Assembly: GCA_029858345.1 (NCBI GenBank)
Contig: JAOUFG010000011.1
Span: forward strand, 1 to 41,096
Reading direction: 5' to 3'
Source of the DNA: Phycisphaerae bacterium
Lineage (GTDB): Bacteria; Planctomycetota; Phycisphaerae; Sedimentisphaerales; Anaerohalosphaeraceae
DNA: 41,096 bases
This document shows positions 18,450 to 33,312 of the stretch, one piece after another. The notes below the pieces were generated by a model that saw only the letters and a list, made by a program, of their open reading frames with translations, searched no databases and had not been told where the DNA came from. Every line of letters starts with the position of its first letter. Position 1 is the first letter of the stretch. The position numbers and the translations under genes were made by a program.

Positions 18450-20816
18450 CTATTCCGTCGGTTCCGCCGCCGGCTCCTTGGAGACGGGTTCCTTCCCTCC
18501 CAGCGCCAACGCCATACGCCGATTCAAGTGATGGCCGTCATGCTCGCTGGTCCAATCCAGCACTTTCTGAAAGGATTTTGGCTCGGCCTTGGCTAACAAA
18601 TACATCGCCATCATACGCACCGGCCACTTGTCATGATTCAGATTGTCCGAAATCTCGCCAATCATTTCCCCGTCGAGCGGCATGGACAGAGAAACAAGAC
18701 AATCTAACGTATAAACCCGAATTTTCCAGTCCGGATCGACAAGAAGCTTACGGACAGCATCGACCAGCAGTTCCTTTTCCACCTGAACACGTTTATAAAC
18801 CGCGCGGCTCAGATGAAGTGCCTGACTCTCAGCCAAAAGCCCTGTAAACAGGGAGGCCGCCTGATATTTTTGACCGGGCTGCCCCTTGGATAAAACGTCC
18901 AGACGCTGCAAGAGAAAATTGCGGGAAAGCGTAACGCCTCTTCGATATATTTTGGCCTGAACGGGGTCCGTTGTTTTCACTCGATTTTCAACGCGGCCCG
19001 ACGCCAACGTCACCGGATCCAAATACACGGTAAAACGAATCGCTGTCTCGGCCTGAGGGTACGTCATCAGCAGTTTTCGAAGCTGTCCGCAATTAAGGTC
19101 CAGAGGAACGGAAAGATGCTCTCCCGGCAAAACAGGTCCGGAAGGCCTAAAACGCGTACTCAGCAACTCCGGGATTTCGACGTTAAGCCCCCCTTCAAAA
19201 GCAGCATCAATACGAACCCGGCCCTGAAGCAAACCGTCATCAGATATAATCAGCGCATCGGAGGACGTGTTTTCGATTACAAGCCGCGGCTGAATCTCGT
19301 CCCCGTACAGAAAATCAGAACCATTGAACAGCAGCTTGACAGAATACCGCTTTGACGGCTCCATAAAATCAGGCACAATTCGATCGGCGTATTGGCCGTT
19401 AAGAGCATCCTGAATACCGGCAGGATCGACAGCGGGAATGTAATCCGAATCCTGCTCCTCCAGAAGATGGATTGCTTTTTCCGCCACAAACGATTCCGGC
19501 GACATCTCAACCACCGCCCGCAGCGTCTCCAGCGCCGTTTGCTTCTGCTCTTCTTTTGCCAGGTCGACAATTGCCGTCGTCAACAGAGCGATCGGGGGTT
19601 TCTCTTCCGAGGATTCAACGTATTGCTGAGCAAGTTCGTGCTGGCCATTCAGGGCCAGCGTATAAGCAAACATTTCCTTGACGCCCTTGCGGTCGGGAGA
19701 TTCCTCAAATGCCCGATTACTCCACGCCAGGGCCTTTTCCGGCTCTTCCTGAACAAAACTGTAAAACCATGCCAGATGTTCCGGATAAATCGGCTGTGTC
19801 CGCTCTTTTACGGATAAGAGTGCTTCCGCTTTCTCGGCCGCGGATACAAGCAAACGGCGGCCCTTGTCAACCTGACCCATCTTAATCAGGGCCTTGCCGG
19901 CAACCGCCTCGAGCATCAAATCCAACCGGTCGGGATTACGATAGCTCTCTGCAACCTCCAGACATTTTGTTTCCATGCGGTCACTGTGGTAACAGCCCAA
20001 CAGCCATCCATGAACAATATCGTCAGGCACCTGTTGGGCAGGATACAAAAACTGATAGACTTTCGCTGCATAGTCATAAGCATCCGCCGCGGTCTCATAC
20101 AGTTGAAAATGTATCAGCGTATCGGCGTATCGAACCGCCGAATCCAAATCGTAAGGATCGATCGTAAGAACCGCACGCATCTGTACCATCTGAACCTGCG
20201 GCGACGGAGTTGCGTCCGTGCCCGCCGTCAGTTCCCAATACTTGGAAAAAGCCAGTTGATTATAGGGATTCAGTGTATAGCCCGACATGAAAGCGTTTGT
20301 TGCCGATGGCATATCGGATTTTTCAACCGCCAGAAAACCTTGTTGGGTCGCCAAATCCGAACCAAAGACAGGGTTTAAGGACGCGTATTTCTGATAGAGT
20401 TTTTGCAGTAAAGCTTCCCGGTCCATACGGGTGTTCATCCCCACCAGCATGCAGTCTAAGGCACGCGAAACAACCTCCAAATCCCCTCGGGAATGAAGAT
20501 AGCGGTCCATCGCCAAGTTCAGCTTGTCCGTATAATCGGCGCCGGCATAACAATTACCCGCCCCGATACGCAGTGCCTGCTCGGCAATCGACCCCGATAA
20601 GGAATCCAGGGACACCGCGGCATCCAAAAATGTCATGGCCTGCTCGGCTTTCATCGGGTCCAATGGATCCTGCCGATGAATTTCGGAAGCTTGCTTAATA
20701 AAAAGGTTGGCTGTGCTTTCTGAGGACAGACTCGCGGTGTCTAATGCAAGCGACACAGAGACACAAAAACAGACGCCGCAAACGACACCTAAAAACACTT
20801 CCCTTTGTCTGGCCAT
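18450..20816 (-). CDS. large exported protein with TPR-like and HEAT-like repeats
   Basis: The product has 788 residues. A signal peptide covers about 1-25 (VVCGVCFCVSVSLA/LD). Residues about 30-470 are helical TPR-like repeats, for example LYETAADAYDYAAKVYQFL, EKALAWSNRAFEESPDR and LAKEEQKQTALETLRAVVEM. A beta-rich domain with an immunoglobulin-like look follows at about 490-640 (PRLVIENTSSDALIISDDG). The C-terminal part (about 650-770) has HEAT-like units such as LLVDPDWKIRVYTLDCLVSL and HDKWPVRMMAMYLLAK. It ends in a Glu/Lys/Pro tail. It is probably a periplasmic scaffold; I do not recognise a named family. GGAG lies six bases before the ATG. It is a single-gene unit. Confidence 0.75.
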   Translation of the reverse strand: MARQREVFLGVVCGVCFCVSVSLALDTASLSSESTANLFIKQASEIHRQDPLDPMKAEQAMTFLDAAVSLDSLSGSIAEQALRIGAGNCYAGADYTDKLNLAMDRYLHSRGDLEVVSRALDCMLVGMNTRMDREALLQKLYQKYASLNPVFGSDLATQQGFLAVEKSDMPSATNAFMSGYTLNPYNQLAFSKYWELTAGTDATPSPQVQMVQMRAVLTIDPYDLDSAVRYADTLIHFQLYETAADAYDYAAKVYQFLYPAQQVPDDIVHGWLLGCYHSDRMETKCLEVAESYRNPDRLDLMLEAVAGKALIKMGQVDKGRRLLVSAAEKAEALLSVKERTQPIYPEHLAWFYSFVQEEPEKALAWSNRAFEESPDRKGVKEMFAYTLALNGQHELAQQYVESSEEKPPIALLTTAIVDLAKEEQKQTALETLRAVVEMSPESFVAEKAIHLLEEQDSDYIPAVDPAGIQDALNGQYADRIVPDFMEPSKRYSVKLLFNGSDFLYGDEIQPRLVIENTSSDALIISDDGLLQGRVRIDAAFEGGLNVEIPELLSTRFRPSGPVLPGEHLSVPLDLNCGQLRKLLMTYPQAETAIRFTVYLDPVTLASGRVENRVKTTDPVQAKIYRRGVTLSRNFLLQRLDVLSKGQPGQKYQAASLFTGLLAESQALHLSRAVYKRVQVEKELLVDAVRKLLVDPDWKIRVYTLDCLVSLSMPLDGEMIGEISDNLNHDKWPVRMMAMYLLAKAEPKSFQKVLDWTSEHDGHHLNRRMALALGGKEPVSKEPAAEPTE

Positions 20817-23449: not shown

Positions 23450-23602
23450 TTAGCCCTGATGATACCTTTCGAAGGATTCACGAGCCAGCATCATTCCCAT
23501 TTTGACATATTTATTTCCTCCAGTTGGAGCTTTTTTCTTTTCAGCGTAATATGCCTCTTTGTATTCATCAAACGTCTTATAGGCCTTTTGTTTTTTTGCC
23601 AT
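23450..23602 (-). CDS. 50-residue basic protein downstream of the Ntn-hydrolase-like gene
   Basis: A minus-strand ATG at 23602 opens a 50-codon frame ending in TAA. GGGAG lies about eight bases upstream. The product (MAKKQKAYKTFDEYKEAYYA at the start) is rich in Lys, Tyr and Glu, and is probably helical and soluble; a GGNK turn lies in the middle. I recognise no family. It starts 19 bases after the stop of the Ntn-hydrolase-like gene on the same strand and has the same AT-rich composition, so the two are probably one operon. A role as partner, inhibitor or substrate of that protein is possible but is inference from position. Confidence 0.55.
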   Translation of the reverse strand: MAKKQKAYKTFDEYKEAYYAEKKKAPTGGNKYVKMGMMLARESFERYHQG

Positions 23603-23621
23603 AAAACCATCTCCCATATAC

Positions 23622-24917
23622 TTAATCTTTAATGTAATTAGCCATAAAATGAGGATTTAATTCAGATTCAAAATAATGTTTTCTTTTTATCCAGACAAAA
23701 CCATCGCCCTTCGAAATAACTGCCACATCGATTTCGCCTCCGACCGTACCAGATGTACCCAAAGAAATCTTTTGTCTAAATGAAGTTAAATTGACTAATG
23801 ACTCAGCCATAGCAGCCAATTCATCTTTGGGGAGGTGCGACACGGAATTTGTAATAGGCAAAACAAAGTTGTTCGTTCTATCTTTTTGTAATTCTTTGTC
23901 AAATTCACGTAAGACACCTTCCCCAACTTTTTGAAGTTTATCTACTATTTCATCACTCTGCTTGTCCTTTGCCTCACAAATCTCTTTGGAAATGTATTCT
24001 GGCAATAAATGCTTCAATAGTCTGGCTAGATTTTTCTCTATGTACTTTCTATGATACGGATGAATTCCTTCCATGAATGACTGAACCATATCACTTTGAG
24101 CAAAAGCAGTTATAGAAGCATGATTGTCCAAAGTAATTTCCTGTTTTTTTTCTACTACGTACTTAAGCATCCCATTAACAGCGCATTCAACTTGCAGGGA
24201 AATTAGCTTTGGAAATATATCCTTTGGGCCGTACCCTGCAAACACAACACCTGATTTGGGGAAAGGAAATTCATTCTTTATGAACATCTGTAAAGCAATT
24301 TCAGTTAACAACCCTTTAAGACTAGACGATATTTGATGATTCTTGAAAACATTGTCAATAACAGAGTCAACCAATTGCTGATATTGCAGCAAGAACTTTT
24401 TTTTGTACCCAGAGGGTGTTTTCCTTAAATCTTCTTTGGCTCTTAAAGAGCTTAAAAAATCTCGCATGACTTTCGCTTTAATCTGTGAAATCTTTGCGTT
24501 TGATATCGATTTCTTTTCTGCTATGGTTTTTTTAACCTGCTCGTCGATCTCTTCTCTTAAATGGTTATAAATTGCAAAAACTTTAGAGGCAACATGTCTA
24601 TCACATCTGTCTTTTGATAACAAAGTCTTATCTTTTTCTAGGTATGACACAAAATCAGAAAGATACTGTTCTAATTGATCGAATTTTTTTGGACCTATAT
24701 GAACTCTATAAGATTTTATAACTGTCTCCCAAGGAATCTCCATGAATTCAGCAGAATCATATATCATGATCGCTACTGGATGAGAATGAGATAGTGCGAA
24801 TAACTTGTTCACTCCATGATAAACATGCTGACTTGAGTTTGCACTAGAAACAGTAACTGCACTATCAGCCGCTAAAGCAATCGCGGACTTATTCATTATA
24901 GCAATTTCTGCGGTCAT
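23622..24917 (-). CDS. proteasome/HslV-like Ntn-hydrolase homologue with large helical insertions
   Basis: The product has 431 residues from the ATG at 24917, chosen because AGAGGAG lies just upstream and a homologue-like start MTAEIAIM follows; the 28 earlier codons have no ribosome site. After Met removal Thr becomes residue 1. Asp17 and Thr21 in LAADSAVT are in register with proteasome beta and HslV. Lys37 in NKLFAL is a candidate for the catalytic lysine (position 33 in those enzymes) if a four-residue insertion is allowed. A late strand VVFAGYG and the C-terminal GGEIDVAVISKGDGF also fit the proteasome fold. Long charged helical segments separate these blocks. It is AT-rich, co-directional with the 50-residue gene. 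Proteolytic activity is inferred, not shown. Confidence 0.7.
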   Translation of the reverse strand: MTAEIAIMNKSAIALAADSAVTVSSANSSQHVYHGVNKLFALSHSHPVAIMIYDSAEFMEIPWETVIKSYRVHIGPKKFDQLEQYLSDFVSYLEKDKTLLSKDRCDRHVASKVFAIYNHLREEIDEQVKKTIAEKKSISNAKISQIKAKVMRDFLSSLRAKEDLRKTPSGYKKKFLLQYQQLVDSVIDNVFKNHQISSSLKGLLTEIALQMFIKNEFPFPKSGVVFAGYGPKDIFPKLISLQVECAVNGMLKYVVEKKQEITLDNHASITAFAQSDMVQSFMEGIHPYHRKYIEKNLARLLKHLLPEYISKEICEAKDKQSDEIVDKLQKVGEGVLREFDKELQKDRTNNFVLPITNSVSHLPKDELAAMAESLVNLTSFRQKISLGTSGTVGGEIDVAVISKGDGFVWIKRKHYFESELNPHFMANYIKD

Positions 24918-27430: not shown

Positions 27431-27949
27431 TTAGTGCTGTTTTTCAGGAACCATGACCATCGTCATCCGTCGTCCAAGCATCAGGGGGCTTCGTTCGACT
27501 TTCCCCTTCTCGGCCAGCGTTTCAACGATCTCGTCCATGATTTTATGCCCGTTTTCGACGTGCATCATCTCGCGGCCGCGGAACAGCATCGAAAACTGAA
27601 CCTTATGCCCCTTTTCGAGAAATTCAGCAGCGTGCTTGACCTTGATATCGCGGTCATGGTCGTCGATTTTCGGCCGCAGGCGGATTTCCTTCAACGTCAC
27701 CGCATGCTGTTTTTTCTGGCTCAATTTCTGCTTTCGCTTTTGCTGATACAGGTATTTGCCGTAATCCATAATCCGGCACACCGGCGGCTCGGCATTCGGC
27801 GAAACCTCCACAAGGTCCAGTCCCAGGTCATGAGCCCGAAACTGGGCTTCCTTGACGTCAACAACCCCCACTTGATTGTTGTTTTCATCGATCAGACGAA
27901 TCGGATTAGTTCGGATCCGCTCGTTAACGCGTAATTTATCTTTACTAAT
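27431..27949 (-). CDS. infC: translation initiation factor IF-3 with AUU start codon
   Basis: IF-3 keeps ribosomal subunits apart and checks start codons. The 172-residue product has the N-domain RVNERIRTNPIRLIDENN, then VVDVKEAQFRAHDLGLDLVEV, and the C-domain KEIRLRPKIDDHDRDIKVKH and VQFSMLFRGREMMH. The start is the unusual ATT at 27949. An in-frame TAG lies nine bases upstream, no ATG, GTG or TTG occurs before the conserved N-domain, and AAAGG lies nine bases before the ATT. AUU start codons are the hallmark of infC in many bacteria and allow IF-3 to repress its own translation. thrS ends 54 bases upstream. Confidence 0.95.
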   Translation of the reverse strand: MSKDKLRVNERIRTNPIRLIDENNNQVGVVDVKEAQFRAHDLGLDLVEVSPNAEPPVCRIMDYGKYLYQQKRKQKLSQKKQHAVTLKEIRLRPKIDDHDRDIKVKHAAEFLEKGHKVQFSMLFRGREMMHVENGHKIMDEIVETLAEKGKVERSPLMLGRRMTMVMVPEKQH

Positions 27950-30377: not shown

Positions 30378-31703
30378 CTACTTGCCAACCCAAGTAAAAC
30401 ATTTTGCTCTGGGTAGTTTGTCTTTATCAAAATCCCAATAAAATGTTATATCTACCGGGCAATTTCCCATAGCTTTATTCACTTCTTCTTTTTCTAATTT
30501 ACCCGAAGCAATAGCATCTCTTATCTCTCTAGGCGACCAAGTCCTGATATTCAAATATCCAAATTGTCCCTTTTCAACAACCTCTTTTCTAACTCGCATG
30601 CCGAACCACTTCCTAAGATCAACCGCCACAACTTTTTGGCAATGTGTTTTTTCTTCATCTTCTACTTCCGCTTTCTTTGGTTCACGAAGTCGAATAATTG
30701 GATACCCTCGGTAAAATCCATCGAACCCTTCTGCTTTCACTTCTTCCCTCCATGAAGGAACAAAATCCTTGTCTTCGCGTAACTCAATCTCAGGTAACTT
30801 GTCACTTACAACAATAAGAAATCCATTACCATTATCACACGGCATCTTCTCCAACCACTTAACAGACTCATCGATCGCTTTAGACATGTTATCTTGACTC
30901 TCTGACTTTGATTTACTGCTTTCAACAATTGTACACAGTAGATCCTTTTCCATCTGATGTCCGATATCGCAACCATAGCGATCACCATCTGCCCCGCTTA
31001 TCGGGTATTTATAATTGATTAAAGCTATCTTTGGCAAAAGATATCTCTTCTGATCTTTTACGTCGTCAACAATTTCGTAATTTCCATTTTTAAGACACAT
31101 CGATAGCAGAGGTATAGCCCTTTTATATGCTTCCCAAAACTTAGCAATATGTTCTTCACGCTTCGCCAAGTCAATCGATGCCTCTGCGATTTCTTCTGCT
31201 TCTTTCGTCTGGTCTAATCTATCACAGTTTTGAAGCCATGTTTCCAACAACTTAAGTCCATGTGAAAGATCATTAAAAACATCTCTTATCGTTTGGATAT
31301 CTCTTTTTATAAACTTTTCTGATATACCAGGTATTGGATCGGGTAACGGATGGACAGTTGCAAGTGCATGACCTGCAAGATATATAAAAGCGAGTGACGT
31401 CTCCTGATATCCAACTACACCGGAACCCGATGAAGATGAACTGCCTGTTAATAAGTCCCGGCGTACCCCTGTAGGTGAGTAGAATATATTTAAATACGAA
31501 TCCAATGTCTTAACAGGTAGGGAAATATCACGATAAAATGTAACGAGTTCGTGAAAGTCCACCTTGGGCTCATGTTCATGGCGATCACGAAATAACTTTT
31601 CAATTGCACTTGCACTAACCCTCTTTTCTCTGGCCATGTTAATTAAGCGTCCAAAAAGAATAAAATGCTGTGTAACAACTTCTTTATGTTCAAAATTGAT
31701 CAT
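30378..31703 (-). CDS. unrecognised soluble protein, second gene of a two-gene module
   Basis: The product has 441 residues from the ATG at 31703, with GGTGAAG upstream; a TTG five codons earlier is less likely. No signal peptide or membrane helix is seen. The N-terminal part (about 1-80) is helical, followed by a Gly/Ser linker (GSSSSSGSG at about 87-95). A helical middle part covers about 100-210. The C-terminal half is mixed alpha/beta, with GFLIVVSDKLPEIEL as a buried strand and several Trp and Cys residues (CPVDITFYWDFDKDKLP). I recognise no family or catalytic motif. It starts one base after the stop of the upstream membrane gene, so the two are coupled. Both are AT-rich compared with neighbours. 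Confidence 0.7.
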   Translation of the reverse strand: MINFEHKEVVTQHFILFGRLINMAREKRVSASAIEKLFRDRHEHEPKVDFHELVTFYRDISLPVKTLDSYLNIFYSPTGVRRDLLTGSSSSSGSGVVGYQETSLAFIYLAGHALATVHPLPDPIPGISEKFIKRDIQTIRDVFNDLSHGLKLLETWLQNCDRLDQTKEAEEIAEASIDLAKREEHIAKFWEAYKRAIPLLSMCLKNGNYEIVDDVKDQKRYLLPKIALINYKYPISGADGDRYGCDIGHQMEKDLLCTIVESSKSKSESQDNMSKAIDESVKWLEKMPCDNGNGFLIVVSDKLPEIELREDKDFVPSWREEVKAEGFDGFYRGYPIIRLREPKKAEVEDEEKTHCQKVVAVDLRKWFGMRVRKEVVEKGQFGYLNIRTWSPREIRDAIASGKLEKEEVNKAMGNCPVDITFYWDFDKDKLPRAKCFTWVGK

Positions 31704-31704
31704 G

Positions 31705-33312
31705 TTATTCTTCACCAAAAACTATATTCTTTCCCGCTTCACACAACTGCTCGACAAGTTCTTCATCATTTTTCTCAATCGCCACCAAGATCCATTCGGT
31801 CAGTCCTTTATGCAAAACCAACCGCATTTTATTTATATCCTCTGTTTCCTTCACATCACTTTTTTCCAGCCATCCGCTGGCAAATTCGTAAAAACCTCCA
31901 AATTGCCCGCGCATTTCGTGTAGATCTTCGCTATTGTCTTCAATGAAATTATAAATCCTTTGAACTAACCATGTATATAATTCCATTGTATGGTAATCCA
32001 TTTCTTGCAGTATTTTTTTCGCTTCTTCCCAGATAGATTCACGTACTTTATATGGCATCTCAAGTGCGTTTAGATACAAAGATAAAAGTTGATAAGCTCT
32101 TCTGACATATTCTCCATAAGCATCCCGTACAACTTTATGCCGTTTTCTCACTTGTCTCAACACCGTTAGTGGAACATTCACAGCATCTAAATATGCTTTT
32201 ACTTGTATTGGATCTTTCTTTTCAATGGCCAGTTTTATTGCCTCATCAAGTTTACTTACCTGACTGTCCCAAAAATCATCATCATTCTCCAAATACTTAT
32301 ATTTCCGCCACTTTATAACCTTTCTTCCTTTTCTGTACACCTCTGATCGTATTTCTTCATGTTGTTTTGTATTCGTGTAACTTAGGACACCCAATCCCTT
32401 TTGCTCGCTTTCATAGTCCGGCGAACTCAGATACAACTCAGCTTTTTTCTTCTTCAAATACTTGTCCAGTTTTGCAAGTCTTTTCAGGTCATAATCCTTG
32501 TATACATCTTGTCCCTTTTCGCTCCCGTCCAGTTCGATTTTTACATCATTGTCTCCGTTACCGGAGTAAAGACTCGATTTGAAGTAATGGCCGTAATACT
32601 GTGAAGGTGGGTGAATATTTCTTCCTACACACCATTTCTCCAGATAAACCCCATACTGACATCTGAAAAGTTTGAAATAAGAATCATTCACAAAACCATA
32701 AGTTAGCTTTCTCGCTGCATATCGTGAAACGACTTTTATCAATTCGCTGGGTATCGAGCATCGTATCGTTTCGAGTATTACGAATGCAAGCATTGCAAGA
32801 GAGTTGACAGATGTACCTATAGATATTGCACATATCCCTACAGTCAAAAAATTTGGAACCCACTCAATTGTAGATAAAAAACGCCCCACGAGCCCACAAA
32901 GAACAGCTACTAATGTTAAACAGCAAAACAATCGTGTCTTGCAAGCGTCATTCAAGTATTCTCCGGCAAATCTTCCTGACTCGCTAATCGTTCGTGAAAG
33001 AGCGACTAGTGAAAGACCAATTGTAAATGTAGGAATAGTAATCCTAACTGCCAGAATTGCCCACTCCCCAGCTTTGTCGTAGCTTGGCATAAGCCATGAA
33101 AATAAAATACCTGTTACAGCGCTAATGATAATAAAAAGCACCCATCCGGGGCGAAACCATGTCAGTTCAGTACTCAAAAATCTTCTCCCCGGCTCACTGT
33201 AAGCTGAGGGGTTGGCGGCATCTTGGTACTCAAGGATTAATTTTACCGAATCCGAGAGTGCATTCCTTACCTCCGGCTGTTCTTTTACACAAGATGAAAG
33301 CCATTTCCTCAT
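31705..33312 (-). CDS. unrecognised four-TM protein with large cytoplasmic domain, first gene of the module
   Basis: The product has 535 residues. After about 50 polar residues there are four hydrophobic segments at about 56-74, 84-106, 126-146 and 152-181. The remaining 350 residues are polar and mostly helical, with a charged Lys/Glu-rich part (about 285-370, KKKKAELYLSSPDYESEQ) and helical repeats after it. Both ends should face the cytoplasm. The layout is like a membrane-anchored effector or sensor, but no known motif is visible. AGGATAATAA precedes the ATG. It is followed at one base by the soluble gene. AT-rich codon use suggests acquisition by transfer. Confidence 0.7.
   Translation of the reverse strand: MRKWLSSCVKEQPEVRNALSDSVKLILEYQDAANPSAYSEPGRRFLSTELTWFRPGWVLFIIISAVTGILFSWLMPSYDKAGEWAILAVRITIPTFTIGLSLVALSRTISESGRFAGEYLNDACKTRLFCCLTLVAVLCGLVGRFLSTIEWVPNFLTVGICAISIGTSVNSLAMLAFVILETIRCSIPSELIKVVSRYAARKLTYGFVNDSYFKLFRCQYGVYLEKWCVGRNIHPPSQYYGHYFKSSLYSGNGDNDVKIELDGSEKGQDVYKDYDLKRLAKLDKYLKKKKAELYLSSPDYESEQKGLGVLSYTNTKQHEEIRSEVYRKGRKVIKWRKYKYLENDDDFWDSQVSKLDEAIKLAIEKKDPIQVKAYLDAVNVPLTVLRQVRKRHKVVRDAYGEYVRRAYQLLSLYLNALEMPYKVRESIWEEAKKILQEMDYHTMELYTWLVQRIYNFIEDNSEDLHEMRGQFGGFYEFASGWLEKSDVKETEDINKMRLVLHKGLTEWILVAIEKNDEELVEQLCEAGKNIVFGEE

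Follow-up and report, generated by a model that had tools for sequence, protein, structure and literature searches.

What a protein with a proteasome-type active site may do in a genome that lacks HslV and gives no HslU match above cut-off is the question raised by a 431-residue ORF of a Phycisphaerae bacterium. The ORF lies in contig JAOUFG010000011.1, of which positions 1 to 41,096 (41,096 nucleotides, the window) were analyzed as a whole. In the whole genome there is no PF00227 match, HslV is absent, and nothing matches HslU above cut-off, which extends to genome scale an earlier remark that no HslU gene lies nearby. That remark comes from a sequence-only reading of the window, in which the product was described as a stand-alone, undescribed threonine hydrolase of the proteasome/HslV type, with a Met-Thr start and helical insertions, either self-compartmentalising or single-chain and perhaps provided with a substrate-recognition domain of its own. 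As detailed below, the enzyme type is borne out, and the two adjectives are not.

Reaction centre, fold and family of the large protein

Features of the locus are collected in Table 1. The ORF is present as described, its ATG being preceded at about 6–12 nt by an SD-like AGAGGAG and followed directly by ACC (Thr). The start is constrained in the family, as a start codon (ATG, GTG or TTG) is followed by ACN in 170 of 171 complete homologous genes, and ATG is followed by AGT (Ser) in the remaining one. Among 93 distinct proteins that were aligned and numbered with this Thr as 1, position 1 is Thr in 92 and Ser in one; Asp17, Ser18 and Lys37 are found in all 93, and Thr21 in 90, with Ser in the other 3. 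The residue count proposed for Asp17 and Thr21 was correct, and the suggestion that Lys37 takes the role of Lys33 agrees with its invariance. The probable counterpart of the oxyanion Gly47 is position 54, which is Gly in 80 of 93 members and Asp in the window protein; at a position of this type it is the backbone amide that would act. The start-codon constraint and the invariant triad give strong evidence for Thr1 as an N-terminal nucleophile, which methionine aminopeptidase would expose. Removal of the initiator Met is expected from the established specificity of this enzyme and would by itself expose Thr1; therefore a propeptide would not be needed.

Table 1. Features of the large and the small gene in the window.
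Feature	Coordinates	Strand	Basis
Gene of the predicted proteasome-like Ntn hydrolase, 431 aa	23622..24917	-	Start codon then Thr (mature Thr1); PHROG 5990, AlphaFold2, Foldseek
Codon of Thr, protein residue 2 (mature Thr1, predicted nucleophile)	24912..24914	-	Thr in 170 of 171 genes, Ser in 1
Codon of Asp18 (mature Asp17)	24864..24866	-	93/93 in the alignment
Codon of Lys38 (mature Lys37, probable counterpart of proteasome Lys33)	24804..24806	-	93/93 in the alignment
Insertion 1, residues 98-213, about 116 residues, four helices between H2 and S6	24279..24626	-	AlphaFold2 model
Insertion 2, residues 287-360, about 74 residues, long helices between H3 and H4	23838..24059	-	AlphaFold2 model
H4-S10-S11 block, residues 361-421, most conserved part, with GG-x-IDVAVISKGDGFVWIKRKHYF	23655..23837	-	Conservation and match to Thermoplasma beta subunit
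Small partner gene, 50 aa (MAKKQKAYKTFDEYKEAYYAEKKKAPTGGNKYVKMGMMLARESFERYHQG)	23450..23602	-	Directly 3' of the large gene; found by family profile

An AlphaFold2 model built with the 93-sequence alignment (mean pLDDT 93.5, pTM 0.89) arranges the elements as S1-S5, H1, H2, S6-S9, H3, H4, S10, S11, which is the order of proteasome subunits. H1 spans residues 63-74 and H2 residues 82-95, a short loop connects S3 and S4, and a short C-terminal helix follows S11. Foldseek retrieved nine PDB structures at E ≤ 0.001, every one a 20S proteasome at probability 1.00; TM-scores are moderate (0.4–0.6 on the shorter chain), as expected because about 190 residues are inserted. A proteasome-like C-terminal strand had been noticed from the sequence, and in a profile search the GGEIDVAVISKGDGF stretch aligns, weakly (E = 0.015) and at the correct place, to residues 176-193 of the Thermoplasma beta subunit 1pma_B. 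On model and alignment, the prediction of a proteasome-beta fold in which the Thr1/Asp17/Lys37 centre is complete is near certain, and the Ntn type assigned to the protein stands.

The inserted helices also noted at that time are resolved by the model into two insertions. The helices of insertion 1 occupy residues 102-213, and H3 runs on into those of insertion 2 (residues 287-359). Both are variable in sequence, with 0 of 116 and 0 of 74 positions, respectively, reaching 90% conservation, and insertion 1 is fairly constant in length (98–124 aa). In the H4-S10-S11 block, 33 of 61 positions are conserved at 90% or more. The combination of a conserved H4-S11 core with variable insertions could fit a fixed reaction centre provided with a variable recognition surface, by which a changing partner or target might be tracked. 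Weak Pfam matches of the insertions to coiled or helical families, and a match to Cullin-3, were judged to be driven by composition and were discarded.

Taken alone, the window protein looks unknown, because searches of Pfam, NCBIfam and, with the single sequence, PDB gave nothing useful. It is matched over its full length (residues 1-428, E 2.5e-114) by the profile of PHROG 5990, the listed function of which is unknown. The Pfam family matched by most members is Proteasome, and the matches are weak (7 of 93 members, best 2.4e-4). Twenty-two new proteasome-like families have been described by Fuchs, Alva and Lupas in 2021 (PMC8665760). Only two of them, PMI-3 and PMI-4, have insertions at both places, a long one after H1/H2 and another between H3 and H4; PMI-3 includes 28 sequences at 90% identity and no phages, PMI-4 includes 411 sequences at 70% identity, from nearly all bacterial groups, Euryarchaeota and phages (PMC8665760). 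The family of the window protein is therefore assigned to PMI-4, by architecture and distribution as described in that study, and not to PMI-3, because its distribution (archaea, many phyla, phages) fits PMI-4 alone. Shared traits are the proteasome-like core, the sites of the two insertions, the absence of a propeptide in both, and hundreds of members spread over many bacterial phyla, Euryarchaeota and phages. The family is thus already catalogued (PHROG 5990; PMI-4 type, 2021) and uncharacterised, and the label undescribed has to be dropped. No functional study of it was found in the full-text open-access literature (preprints and closed journals fall outside this scope).

The protein differs from its better known relatives. 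HslV shares the Thr1, Asp17 and Lys33-type centre and has members in bacteria and phages, but it is about half as long, lacks large insertions and is partnered by HslU; with 431 aa, two insertions and a genome in which HslU was not detected above cut-off, the window protein falls outside HslV. Beta subunits of the 20S proteasome share the fold and the C-terminal strands and supply the best structural matches; in contrast, the window protein has no propeptide and two large insertions, and an alpha partner was not found. Connectase, a specific protein ligase of the proteasome superfamily (PMC8665760), resembles the enzyme proposed here because it acts without an unfoldase. Connectase lacks H1/H2 and carries a two-helix insertion between S3 and S4, whereas in the model of the window protein H1/H2 are present and the insertions are located elsewhere.

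The downstream gene and the spread of the pair

A second gene, tightly linked to the large one, was missed by the sequence-only reading. In the window its ATG is preceded at about 10 nt by an SD-like GGAGA, and an alternative in-frame upstream ATG is possible at 23617. ORFs of 40–85 aa, starting from -50 to +30 of the stop of the large gene, were counted in non-redundant loci with enough sequence, and were found directly behind the large gene in 109 of 116 (94%). The corresponding control values are 24% for other long ORFs in these loci and 21% after the DNA was shuffled. The term stand-alone is misleading for this reason. In close pairs of small genes dN is well below dS (e.g. dN 0.10, dS 0.96), and the ORFs are regarded as real genes because synonymous change far exceeds non-synonymous change. 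Large and small gene, the latter co-directional and encoding a protein of 45–75 aa, very likely make a two-gene module. The study that defined PMI-4 found no functional clue in the genomic context of the new families and no co-occurring AAA+ protein, and does not mention a small partner gene (PMC8665760); the near-universal partner looks therefore like a new result.

An iterated profile search of the ORFs located behind homologues found relatives of the window small protein in 66 of 168 loci, which come from archaea and many bacterial phyla; the lowest E-value was 9e-20, in a search set of this small size. The family profile finds the window copy, itself a profile member, at E 7.7e-11. In loci outside this main group, too, the position behind the large gene is taken by an ORF of comparable size. 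Overall, one linked cluster takes in 77 of the 138 unique small sequences, and the others are singletons or belong to several smaller clusters. Across 392 genomes from the phylum, the main profile matches beside the large gene in the window genome and in one other (G310), and one further match is marginal and contains stops. Two other large-family members of the phylum are accompanied by a variant small protein, VFKTxxEYxxFYS, close to AYKTFDEYKEAYY of the window copy. A short [FY][FLY]P[KEN] motif is found in many small proteins, and is replaced by YYAEK in the window; no motif is conserved near either end, and whole groups lack the central one. ORFs behind viral loci (e.g. L133, L139, L096, L127) feature group-specific motifs, such as KDFF, LREWQKxFNPS, FFNxP and TGRR. 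As judged from these comparisons, the small proteins are too divergent for proof of common homology, and they may make one family or several unrelated ones recruited to this position.

The small protein usually diverges faster than the large one. Over 66 main-cluster loci the distances of the two proteins correlate (r = 0.75), a value expected for co-inheritance and by itself no proof of contact. An AlphaFold2 model of the two proteins fused as one chain, based on loci in which the small gene is in frame behind the large one and the stop was read through, gives no answer on contact either way, since with its shallow alignment the core itself did not fold (mean pLDDT 72).

The large gene was confirmed in 489 stretches from a scan of 84,980 genomes and in 164 IMG/VR stretches from a scan of viral contigs; plasmid and phage collections added 23 records with relatives at 29–42% identity. 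Hosts belong to ANME and other Euryarchaeota, Nitrospirae, Planctomycetota, Cloacimonadota, Chloroflexi, Firmicutes, Proteobacteria, Bacteroidetes, Cyanobacteria and Actinobacteria, and many homologues reside in prophages. Occurrence is low at close range, with about 6 solid matches in the 392 genomes of the phylum and 2 in 40 near relatives, the window's own genome being counted in both. The gene pair is a mobile module that occurs sporadically, on plasmids, in prophages and phage satellites, and in scattered genomes. Satellite phages of Streptococcus carry the two genes as their last ones, on the side distal to the integrase; in phage Javan85 the module is at the distal end, as last gene; in a Providencia phage it lies between antiterminator Q and holin. 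Such positions are the usual cargo sites of temperate phages. Repressors, Q antiterminators, holins and endolysins are numerous among the neighbours in viral contigs, where IrrE-like peptidases also occur. Apart from the small gene, no recurrent family was found among 126 chromosomal neighbours, and defence genes near chromosomal copies were scattered matches only, which were not taken as a sign of enrichment in defence islands. The large protein did not match known defence models (best PADLOC score 17.4 bits, on a helical stretch). A conserved gene order behind pheS was not found in the genus, and since this order varies an empty insertion site could not be defined.

In two Rhizobiales plasmids (L200, L201) the large gene is broken by frameshifts, which is consistent with a dispensable accessory gene. 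In plasmids of Rhizobium and Mesorhizobium the module lies about 1–3 kb from an operon encoding multiubiquitin, ThiF (E1) and DUF6527, in two different arrangements (L006 2416-5912, L013 8699-12207, L014 7671-11227, L200 10687-14203), and in the Rhizobium plasmids a ClpP-like gene is also near. A functional link to ubiquitin was considered and rejected: at the other loci, all of which were covered by BLAST, the operon did not appear and a lone ThiF-like match in L092 was the only hit, and the neighbourhood is regarded as lineage-specific because of its absence from the other loci.

Possible roles of the gene pair

In the mechanism proposed, removal of the initiator Met would yield an active Thr1, and the Thr1 acyl-enzyme would hydrolyse a peptide bond, or transfer it, in a restricted group of target proteins. 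The large enzyme would act alone or in a small assembly, without an AAA+ unfoldase. The small protein would bind and control it, most likely as inhibitor or specificity adaptor, and a trigger would release or redirect the small protein. As accessory cargo of prophages, satellites and islands, the module would most likely serve in conflicts of phages with other mobile elements. Points against this proposal are the missing match to a known defence model, the merely scattered defence genes beside chromosomal copies, the divergence among the small proteins, and Asp at the probable oxyanion position 54 of the window protein. Whether the small protein is a binding regulator of the large one is evenly poised. 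A role of the module in conflict falls a little short of that, and so does the proposal as a whole, a Thr1 enzyme controlled by a bound small protein and carried as conflict cargo. More tentative still is the view that the pair makes a novel two-component system, in which an unfoldase-free Thr1 hydrolase or ligase has an obligate, small, fast-evolving inhibitor, adaptor or tag, and which phages and satellites have spread in bacteria and archaea as an immunity or competition module.

The small protein may instead be the substrate of the large one: in the manner of connectase, the large enzyme would cleave it and ligate a fragment to other proteins, or would simply mature it. The precedent of a specific ligase working without unfoldase in the same superfamily (PMC8665760) lends this some weight, and so does the [FY][FLY]P[KEN] motif common to many small proteins. 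A dedicated substrate gene beside its enzyme is a common arrangement. The ends of the small proteins have no conserved motif, though, the central one is missing in whole groups and is YYAEK in the window, and the large protein, in the AlphaFold2 model, retains H1/H2 and lacks the S3/S4 insertion of connectase; we hold this alternative to be unlikely. Equally unlikely is a toxin-antitoxin or abortive-infection unit, in which the free protease would be toxic and the small protein would neutralise it until infection. The layout of a large and a small gene fits such modules; the partner is small and evolves fast, and the distribution is sporadic and mobile, with cargo positions in prophages and satellites. 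Against this, the small gene is second in order, and known systems were not matched in PADLOC. Such a unit is a special case of control by a bound small protein, the explanation we prefer.

A self-compartmentalising general peptidase, made by a ring of subunits for which the small protein would be an assembly factor or a pore plug, is less probable again. It would be suggested by the proteasome fold and the conserved H4, as by the multimeric state of all characterised proteasome relatives other than connectase (PMC8665760). Insertions at these sites could, however, hinder the assembly of double rings (PMC8665760), no ATPase partner was found among chromosomal neighbours, nor HslU above cut-off in the window genome, and a sporadic distribution is ill-suited to a housekeeping protease. 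Finally, the strong differences among small ORFs of different groups might suggest an unrelated or non-functional frame lying behind the large gene by chance, a very remote alternative that appears already contradicted by its frequency (94% versus 21–24% in the two controls), by dN well below dS, and by homologues in archaea and many bacterial phyla at E-values down to 9e-20.

A partner gene beside 94% of the members of one of the largest proteasome-like families is the first concrete lead to their function, and allows the question to be addressed experimentally with just two small constructs. Should the hydrolase be controlled by the small protein, or process it, this would be a new regulation of a proteasome-type site without AAA+ ATPase; the same reading, if true, would link the proteasome fold to phage conflict.

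Other genes in the window

Three further genes of the minus strand encode proteins that are poorly characterised or uncharacterised. The 788-aa product of 18450-20816 has a marginal match to HEAT repeats alone (E 4e-4). Two genes at 30378-31718 and 31705-33312, overlapping by 14 nt, have no match in Pfam or NCBIfam; the product of the latter (535 aa) features apparent membrane segments near the N-terminus. On the same strand, infC (IF3, 27431-27949) has no in-frame ATG, GTG or TTG at the right place. A rare AUU start is known for infC, and reading from an ATT codon (ATT AGT AAA GAT AAA) located behind GAAAGGTAGCGAGCC gives the N-terminus, which is consistent with such a start.
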